From: Desulforamulus hydrothermalis Lam5 = DSM 18033 | GTDB taxonomy: Bacteria; Bacillota; Desulfotomaculia; Desulfotomaculales; Desulfotomaculaceae | Assembly: GCF_000315365.1 (NCBI RefSeq) | Contig: NZ_CAOS01000013.1 | Coordinates: forward strand, 248,001 to 312,000 | Direction: 5' to 3' | DNA: 64,000 bases | Shown here: in pieces, positions 2,425-34,657 of the stretch | How the letters are laid out: the number at the start of each line of letters is the position of its first letter | Position numbering within the stretch: the first letter of the stretch is position 1 | Program-made: the position numbers and the translations under genes | The notes under the pieces: generated by a model | The model's database searches: none | Seen by the model: the letters and a program-made list of their open reading frames with translations, nothing else | Told to the model about the DNA's origin: nothing

Positions 2425-2645
2425 GGCGAAGGGTATATTCCTTTGCTCAGACTGTAGACAAAAGAAAGCCAAGGTGGTTTGATAATCCCCTGCCGGCGAC
2501 TTGTCGAAGCGCCGTCACGGCACTTGATGAGCGAAAGGAGCTATTGGGGTGGCGCCCGCAGCGAATCATAGTGCTGTCGGTGCGTAGGCCCGGAGCTAAA
2601 GGGGATCATCAACCACCTTTATTGTTTGTCGGGCGAAGGGTATAT
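2425..2645 (+). mobile_element. Hairpin repeat element, copy 1, with 14-bp flanking direct repeats
   Basis: The core runs from GACTGTAGACAAA at 2450 to TTTGTC at 2630. It contains no credible gene. An outer stem pairs 2473-2491 with 2600-2617 and an inner stem pairs 2509-2524 with 2570-2583. TGAT and ATCA extend the inner stem. The sequence is clearly homologous to a second copy at 34362-34621 in the same orientation. The exact direct repeat GGCGAAGGGTATAT occurs at 2425-2438 and 2632-2645, as expected for a target duplication, though 11 extra bases separate the left repeat from the element end. The right terminal inverted repeat seen in copy 2 is mostly lost here. Confidence 0.75.
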
Positions 2646-32472: not shown

Positions 32473-34353
32473 ATGCTGCAAAGTGTTAAAACAAAATTAT
32501 TGATCCCCCTGCTTGTGCTGTTGGGACTCTCCCTGGTCATGCTGGTAGCCATGGGATACCGGCAAATGCGCGAGGCTGTTTTGGATCAAGAGCAAGTGCG
32601 TTACCGCAACATCGAATCCATCGTCAGAAACGACCTGGAAGCAGTGTTTGCTGCTGCCGGCATGGGCCTTAGCGCCTTAATTGAAATGCCGGAGGTGCAA
32701 AAGGCCTTTGCCGAGCGAAACCGGGAAGAACTTTACCGGCTGACTGCGCCGGTTTTTGCCCGGGCCAAACAGGAGGGAATTGAGCAAATTCAGTTCCACC
32801 TGCCACCGGCCACTTCTTTTTTGCGCTTGCACCAGCCGCAAAAATTTGGTGATGATTTATCATCCTTCCGGGCCACCGTTTTGCAGTGCAATAACGAAAA
32901 AAAATGGGTGGCCGGGCTGGAGGAAGGACGGGGCGGTTACGGTTTCCGGGTGGTTGCCCCGGTGTATTACCAGGGGCAGCATGTGGGTAGTGCCGAGTAC
33001 GGCATGGGTTTTGGCGCCAAGTTGTTGGCTCGCTGGAAAGAACAATGCGGCGGGGAATTCTTTATGTACCCCTATGCCGGTAACGGCGTAGCCTGGCAAA
33101 AGGTTGACAAAGATAAGCCGCTGGCCGGCACAGCCGAGCAAGATCCCTGGCCGGTGCCCAACGAGGAAGTGAAAAAGGCGGTGGCGGGCCGGGGCTATCA
33201 CCTGGTGTACCAAAACAATGCAGCATCTGCAGTGCTGATTATACCTCTTTATGATTATAGCGGTCAGCCCATCAGTTATGTCAAGGTCAACCTGGATCGT
33301 ACAGAAGTTTTAAAGCAATTGTCCGCAGTTTTAAGAAACAGTGCCCTGCACCTGGTGCTTTCGCTGCTGGTGATGGGGCTGGTGATGTACTGGTTGATCG
33401 GGAATATTTTAAAACCCTTAAATCGGCTGTCTGAACATATGGCAGTGGTGGCCGGCGGCAATTTAAGCGGCAGTTTCACCGTCCAGGGTAAAGATGAGAT
33501 AGCCCGGGTGGGGCACAGCTTTAATACCATGCTGCAGAATTTTCGACAGTTGCTTGGACAAACCGGCGAGGTGGCCGGACAACTGAGCGAGGCCGGCAAG
33601 TCGCTCAGCATGTCATCAGAAGAAACCAGCGCCTCCCTGCAGGGGGCTAACCAGCAGGTGGAACAATTGGCCTATTCGCTGAAAGATTTAACGGACACGG
33701 CCCGGCAGACGGCGGATTATTCTGAACAGGCCGGCCAGGCGGCCCGGGCAGGCCAGCAGGTGGTGCAACAGGCAGTGCAGCAAATGCGGGTGCTGCATCA
33801 GATGGTGGAGAACCTGGCCGGGGATACCGGCAGTTTAGGACATCAGATTGAAGATGTCAGCAAATTTGTGCAACTGATTGGTGAGATTGCCGAACAAACT
33901 AACCTGTTAGCCTTGAATGCTGCCATTGAAGCAGCCAGGGCGGGCGAACACGGCCGGGGCTTTTCCGTGGTGGCGCAAGAGGTGCGCAAACTGGCAGACA
34001 GGTCAAACCAGGCGGCAAAAGATGTGGCAAACATTATCCGGGAAATTACCGAGCGCTCCCAGGATGTTATGTTCAGTATGAATGAGGGTCTGAACGAGGT
34101 TAAAGCGGGGCACCGCTTAATTGATGAAACGGGTGAAAAATTCAGGCAGATCAAATCACTGGTGGACGTTTTGGTGGCCCGCTCCGGGGAAGTGGCGGCA
34201 GCCTGTACCAGGGCCACCGCCAACAGCACAGAAATTGCTGCCGCCATGCAGCAGCAATCCGCCGCCGCCCAGCAGGTGGCCGCATCCGCCGGCGTGCTTA
34301 ACCGGTTGTCCGAGGATTTACAGAACCATATCAGTCAATTTAAAATGACTTAG
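32473..34353 (+). CDS. Methyl-accepting chemotaxis protein with dCache-type sensor
   Basis: A first membrane helix (about residues 10-28) and second helix (about 285-307) enclose an extracellular sensor with [19 protein letters not shown], typical of a double-Cache (dCache_3-like) ligand domain. HAMP follows, then the signalling domain with the conserved tip [20 protein letters not shown] (residue order seen in receptors of all lengths). It should signal to the CheA-CheW encoded at 51 kb. ATG 32473 behind AAGGGGTG is chosen. No sigma-D motif was found in front. The ligand is unknown. Confidence 0.94.
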
Positions 34354-34637
34354 GCAGTTAAGACTGTAGACAAAGGTTGTAAACAAAGTGAGGCGGTTTT
34401 ATGATCCCCTGTCGGCGACTTGTCGAAGCACCGGCAACAGCACTTGATGAGCGAAAGGAGCCATTGGGGTGGCGCCCACAGGACGTGGGCGCCAGCCGAA
34501 CCGGGCCAGGATGGCCCGTTTGAGGCGACCTCAAGGGCGACCGGAGCGAATCATAGTGCTGTCGGTGCGTAGACCGGAGCCAAAGGGGATCATAAACCAC
34601 CGCTAATGTTTGTCGACACTCTGACTTAGGCAGTTAA
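34346..34637 (+). mobile_element. Hairpin repeat element, copy 2, with 16-bp flanking direct repeats
   Basis: The element proper spans 34362-34621 and is flanked by exact copies of TGACTTAGGCAGTTAA (34346-34361 and 34622-34637). Its ends GACTGTAGACAAA and TTTGTCGACACTC are imperfect inverted repeats (11 of 13). The outer stem pairs about 34392-34410 with 34584-34601. The inner stem pairs 34428-34444 with 34555-34568. Relative to copy 1 it has about 64 extra bases (34481-34544) made of small hairpins. The insertion lies in the loop of the chemoreceptor gene's terminator. There is no credible reading frame. Confidence 0.82.
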
Positions 34638-34657
34638 TGCCTAAGTTATTTTATTTT
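34624..34657 (+). terminator. Terminator of mcp, regenerated downstream of the hairpin element
   Basis: ACTTAGGCA and TGCCTAAGT pair perfectly around GTTAA and are followed by TATTTTATTTT. The 5' arm and loop also occur alone at 34348-34361, before the element, so the element split the original terminator and the duplication restored it. Confidence 0.85.

Follow-up and report, generated by a model that had tools for sequence, protein, structure and literature searches.

TwoAYGGAY RNA as cargo of a probable IS1182-type MITE between duplicated terminator stem-loops in Desulforamulus hydrothermalis

REP/REPIN-RAYT and IS200/IS605-type elements are small, dispersed, hairpin-rich and extragenic sequences that are moved in trans by HUH transposases, which act on single strands and leave no target duplication. 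The element analyzed here resembled them in its small size, dispersal, hairpins, extragenic sites and probable movement in trans; however, membership in either group was ruled out by its long duplications, its terminal inverted repeats and the DDE type of its partner transposase.

Insertion of IS1182-family elements into terminators is already known. IS1272 trims terminators without duplication (Furi et al., PMC4923244) and replaces the stem-loop (PMC5678879), ISCbo5 of Clostridium botulinum group III lies in terminator hairpins and has a 'surrounding hairpin' (PMC3098183), and the direct repeats of the IS1182 family, according to ISfinder, range from 2 to 60 bp (PMC7335449). The present system shares with IS1272/TnSha1 of Staphylococcus and with ISCbo5 the transposase family and the choice of stem-loops, mostly terminators, as targets. 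IS1272 takes the place of the stem-loop or trims it, and no duplication results; in the present system, by contrast, the stem-loop was duplicated in full and the moving units included MITEs with an RNA cargo. Stem-loop replacement of the IS1272 type was thus ruled out.

The RNA in question, TwoAYGGAY (Rfam RF01731), was described from human gut, gamma-Proteobacteria and Clostridiales (Weinberg et al., 2010; PMC2864571) and has been proposed as a CsrA-binding sRNA of Clostridia (PMC4333381). Rfam types it as Cis-reg, whereas here it appeared within a dispersed mobile element. We found no description of TwoAYGGAY as such an element in the texts consulted, and ISfinder or the supplements of Weinberg et al. 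may hold earlier notice. The CsrA-sequestering sRNAs CsrB/CsrC/Rsm likewise present GGA in hairpin loops, but each is a single dedicated gene with many sites, in contrast with two putative sites per unit of a high-copy transposon located in 3' regions.

The element family and its terminator duplications

The window, that is, the whole 64,000-nt stretch of the source genome (G000) analyzed here, contains one copy of the element at the sdaAA locus and one at the mcp locus, with the following features.

2426..2446, + strand: left target-site duplication of copy 1, the sdaAA terminator stem-loop GCGAAGG GTATATT CCTTTGC (from the sequence and congener sdaAA loci)
2448..2462, + strand: left terminal inverted repeat of copy 1, CAGACTGTAGACAAA (exact pattern match, G000:C13:250448-250462)
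2448..2631, + strand: copy 1, an internally deleted element of 184 nt (from the sequence and the alignment of copies)
2632..2645, + strand: right terminator stem-loop copy of copy 1, 3' arm lost, GGCGAAGGGTATAT (from the sequence)
34348..34361, + strand: left mcp terminator stem-loop copy, 3' arm lost, ACTTAGGCAGTTAA (the mcp stop codon TAG, 34351-34353, falls within it)
34362..34623, + strand: copy 2, a near-intact MITE of 262 nt, first two left-end bases lost (from the sequence, the fold and an 18-mer search)
34421..34575, + strand: RF01731 TwoAYGGAY core of copy 2 (56.1 bits, E 9.4e-9, gathering score 43)
34471..34493, + strand: candidate CsrA-type hairpin 1, GGCGCCCAC-AGGAC-GTGGGCGCC (invariant loop CAGGA, covarying stem)
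34502..34518, + strand: candidate CsrA-type hairpin 2, CGGGCCAGGATGGCCCG (from the cross-species alignment and covariation)
34609..34623, + strand: right terminal inverted repeat of copy 2, TTTGTCGACACTCTG (exact match, G000:C13:282609-282623)
34624..34646, + strand: right mcp terminator stem-loop copy, intact, ACTTAGGCA GTTAA TGCCTAAGT (followed by a T-rich run at 34647-34657)

The first-pass annotation had described a dispersed hairpin element without protein-coding capacity, present in two copies. Both its dispersal and the lack of an encoded protein held, but the number of copies was far higher: BLAST of copy 1 against the 2.69-Mb genome returned 77 pieces, and a conserved 18-mer of the element occurred at 88 places (none for the reversed control), so the dispersed family has about 90 members. 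When copies were retrieved with their flanks and oriented, the intact unit was found to be approximately 265 bp long, to start with CAGACTGTAGACAAAGG and end with TTTGTCGACACTCTG, and to carry imperfect terminal inverted repeats of 15 bp, CAGASTGTMGACAAA; the consensus folded into a single rod (-144 kcal/mol). Short derivatives of about 115 bp were also present, as were derivatives of 42 and 57 bp that comprised barely more than both ends. Copy 1 itself has lost about 66 nt, including both AGGAY hairpins, at a junction near 2558, and its right end lacks the final 8 nt. Because both defining hairpins are deleted, it was missed by Rfam (no match to RF01731 even at E 1).

With respect to genes predicted by a codon-usage model, 13 elements between tandem genes were in sense and 6 in antisense orientation, 16 lay between convergent genes and 1 between divergent genes. 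We rejected the idea that all elements point the same way with respect to the terminated gene, as 13 versus 6 represents no significant bias, so that some copies would not be transcribed in the CsrA-binding sense. T-rich tracts were found on both sides of the elements. Several loci had a more complex arrangement. At L125:4902-5733 (G000:C10:84330-85161), a 114-bp derivative appeared twice, 718 bp apart and each time with its flanking hairpins, apparently by tandem duplication of the neighbourhood, and at L126:301-502 (G000:C11) elements followed one another with copies of one stem-loop between them, which looks like repeated insertion at the same terminator. One orthologous terminator was occupied both in G000 (L136) and in D. 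putei (G001; L105/L158), by a 57-bp derivative and, in inverse orientation, a full element, respectively; inversion via the flanking palindromes or independent insertions could account for this.

Directly outside both element ends we found the same stem-loop, which was specific to each locus and differed from locus to locus. Alignment of left against right flanks for the 55 near-full-length copies gave a median score of 19, compared with 6 for mismatched pairs, and 47 copies scored above every one of 2970 mismatched flank pairs. In these 47 copies the duplicated stretch measured 15-31 bp (median 23, mean identity 95%), lay flush with the left end in 39 cases and with the right end in 40, and folded in 45. 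The 42- and 57-bp derivatives, which run from one terminal repeat to the other, were also flanked by duplicated stem-loops, as were those of about 115 bp.

Single terminator hairpins were present at most of the orthologous gene ends without the element that were examined in G001 and G003 (for example, L028/L182, L047/L184, L018/L191, L030/L188, L039/L193, L027/L196, L012/L194 and L052/L197). The same comparison had been suggested for the two loci of the window: sdaAA orthologues in G001, G003 and G006 had one terminator hairpin downstream and no element, and the mcp orthologue in G001 was likewise followed by a single terminator, though one different from that at the copy 2 site. In some other relatives (for example, L025 and L036) the terminator at the orthologous position was unrelated, and these hence do not give the exact sequence before insertion. 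The target duplication is the whole transcription-terminator stem-loop of the host gene, present on both sides of the insert. Insertion with target duplication had been correctly read from exact direct repeats of 14 bp in copy 1 (GGCGAAGGGTATAT, 2425-2438 and 2632-2645) and 16 bp in copy 2 (TGACTTAGGCAGTTAA, 34346-34361 and 34622-34637), but these are not arbitrary duplications; they correspond to one arm plus the loop of the stem-loop, the other arm having been lost on one side of each copy.

Autonomous relatives and the missing transposase

A search of related genomes for the element ends detected pairs approximately 1.6 kb apart in two congeners, Desulforamulus putei DSM 12395 (G001) and G008. 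These insertion sequences encode a 490-aa transposase that belongs to the IS1182 family (NCBIfam NF033551; 456 bits, with the cut-off at 270, E 1.5e-136) and matches Pfam DDE_Tnp_1 and DDE_Tnp_1_6. The left end CAGACTGTAGACAAA and right end CAGAGTGTCGACAAA of the MITE were identical to those of the insertion sequences, which were also located between copies of one stem-loop; in G008, the sdaAA terminator, the site of copy 1, holds a 1.6-kb insertion sequence instead. Related insertion sequences in Desulforamulus (G004), Bacillota MAGs and Acholeplasma/Tenericutes lay between exact or near-exact stem-loop copies, and at L168 a relative was flanked by a 34-bp perfect hairpin. An IS1202-type origin, considered for its long duplications (PMC10132070), was dropped because the partner belongs to the IS1182 family. 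D. putei also contained a further family of MITEs, about 175-240 bp long, that combine these ends with a different interior (L148, L152 and L156).

In the source genome (99.94% complete), no close relative of this transposase was found, the best being weak matches of 25%. When it was sought at 20 regions of G000 with apparently unpaired ends, those that had a mate held short derivatives only. Mobilization is therefore deduced from the relatives, and the MITEs of this genome appear to be stranded without their mover; the same absence hid their IS1182-type mobility from the first-pass annotation. A relic MITE needs no active partner in its own genome. Based on the ends, the duplications, the single terminators of relatives and the autonomous relatives with the same ends, which, like the lack of the transposase here, were directly observed, we consider it highly probable that the element is an IS1182-type MITE that inserts at terminators with duplication of the whole stem-loop.

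The TwoAYGGAY cargo and its possible relation to CsrA

At or above the gathering score of RF01731 (43 bits), 55 copies with the same two-hairpin core were identified in G000, with copy 2 among them and copy 1, which lacks the defining hairpins, unmatched. The family had been recorded as unrecognized, and the Rfam comparison proposed at that stage thus supplied its name for the intact copy.

Conservation of the fold was analyzed in an alignment of 27 cores from 13 genomes, with the structure derived by RNAalifold. Compensatory double changes occurred at 27 of the 32 pairs, 132 compensatory cells were observed compared with 29 in shuffles, and 96.7% of cells were paired as against at most 39% when partners were slid as a control. 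The CAGGA of loop 1 was invariant in all 27 sequences and that of loop 2 invariant or nearly so, while the surrounding stems varied. These data uphold the earlier proposal of a conserved fold under selection. Both copies in the window also folded far more stably than expected by chance (z -4.7 for copy 1 and -10 for copy 2, with 0 of 200 shuffles equally stable in either case). The stem letters first put forward were also correct (TTGAT/ATCAA in copy 1 versus TTTAT/ATAAA in copy 2, and GCGCCG versus GCACCG against CGGTGC), but the G-C to T-A double change in the outer stem carries little weight alone: among classifiable copies this pair was T-A in 32, G-C in 1, G-A in 2 and A-A in 1, so copy 1 is the odd one. 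Covariation within the 55 G000 copies was weak as well (19 cells with double changes, compared with a mean of 6.9 and a maximum of 15 in shuffles), and the structural argument is therefore based on the cross-species alignment.

The copy number of RF01731 differed widely among relatives. In G005, G003, G008 and G009 the core occurred at 1-3 copies, without MITE ends in the copy examined, and hence the RNA is not restricted to the MITE. Moreover, RF01731 cores of G038, G019 and G046 (L102, L100, L118 and L248-L255) were located in multi-copy repeats without CAGA ends. That the cores of G019 and G038/G046 ride transposons with other ends was partly supported, with an inverted AACTTTCGCAC pair in L102 that was inconsistent elsewhere.

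With regard to function, the hairpin loops match features of CsrA sites (GGA in the loop, A-N-GGA context) and thus look like candidate binding sites with the anatomy of such sites. In G000, the candidate site was intact in hairpin 1 in 54 of the 55 copies, in hairpin 2 in 52 and in both in 51. The source genome encodes csrA (G000:C13:312340-312495, E 1e-23) 340 bp past the window end. Among 60 relatives, 17 of the 38 that carry csrA and 1 of the 22 that lack it had RF01731 (Fisher p 0.001, ignoring phylogeny), and the single exception was only 70% complete. As cargo, the TwoAYGGAY RNA is an extended rod in which two hairpins expose CA-GGA loops. On balance, we favor the view that transcription of the upstream gene reads through into the element and ends at the terminator copy downstream of it, and that the resulting RNA binds CsrA. 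That many copies together titrate CsrA or mark the mRNAs that carry them is a more speculative possibility. Against such roles, copy 1 persists although both of its CsrA-type hairpins are gone.

A purely parasitic element, whose RNA serves the transposon alone (for example, as a transposition aid or in transcript protection) and resembles CsrA targets incidentally, is an alternative that we regard as rather unlikely, yet the strongest of those considered. It would suit the highly variable copy number among relatives and the fact that the interior can be lost while the element still lies between duplicated hairpins. On the other hand, the same RNA core is found at 1-3 copies in relatives without visible terminal repeats, its loops are conserved as well as its stems and match the hairpin A-N-GGA site of CsrA, and its occurrence tracks csrA. 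A cis-regulatory RNA beneficial to the host, selected at each gene end for local regulation with mobility being secondary, appeared less probable still. It would agree with the pronounced covariation and unchanging loop letters seen in different genera, and with the retention of both sites in most G000 copies, but the loci differ between species, orthologues lack the element, orientation is not fixed and deletion derivatives without the motif persist.

Route of insertion and implications

We propose that an IS1182-family DDE transposase, acting in trans, would recognize the CAGASTGTMGACAAA ends and insert the element at stem-loops, in practice intrinsic terminators at gene ends. To judge from the structure of the product, the two ends would join opposite feet of the stem-loop cruciform, and since the joined feet are opposite, gap repair would leave the whole stem-loop on both sides. 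This route fits the '5-prime-feet' branch of the cruciform model, which Wan et al. (2017; PMC5678879, Fig. 13) sketched as another possible outcome for IS1272. RNA-mediated dispersal at terminators, similar to that of SINEs or group II/IIC introns and with the duplications produced by target-primed reverse transcription, is very improbable: although the variable duplications, the terminator targets and the structured RNA core resemble traces of retroelements, the terminal inverted repeats are common to DDE-transposase insertion sequences that leave the same stem-loop duplications, derivatives of 42-57 bp consisting of the ends without RNA also lie between duplicated stem-loops, and neither poly-A nor intron hallmarks were found.

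Outside the genus, G016, from another family of the order, had duplicated hairpins on either side of TwoAYGGAY copies whose ends were CAGACTGAAGACAAA (L237, L239 and L241). Among six copies examined in G007, one was located between duplicated hairpins (L245, 23 bp exact) and four between two different terminator hairpins (L242, L243, L244 and L247), the latter perhaps reflecting ectopic recombination between copies or misassembly. These four unlike pairs, and the known existence of tandem terminators, are what could be said for flanking repeats that are independently evolved tandem terminators and not target duplications, but this is the least credible explanation, given the near-identical abutting hairpins at 47 of 55 G000 copies, which none of the mismatched pairs reached, and the single terminator in relatives.

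With transposition into terminators by an IS1182-type MITE as the preferred reading, the new aspects are RF01731 as transposon cargo, a record from several species of duplication of the whole stem-loop, and the idea of a CsrA sponge spanning the genome, which can be tested. TwoAYGGAY, an orphan family in Rfam curated as cis-regulatory, gains a concrete biology as transposon cargo that has the anatomy of CsrA sites in this lineage. The duplications provide many natural cases of structure-directed insertion duplicating a hairpin of variable length, which was predicted, not shown, in the IS1272 cruciform model. With terminators as targets, the RNA module enters 3' regions without breaking genes, and this placement makes its effects on CsrA regulation and on termination directly testable. 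It is conceivable, though doubtful at present, that a terminator-targeting transposon has placed a CsrA-binding 3' UTR module at dozens of gene ends, with some 50 intact copies and more than 100 predicted sites acting as a dispersed sponge that rewires Csr control genome-wide. If true, such a dispersed CsrA sponge would be a bacterial parallel to regulatory SINEs.
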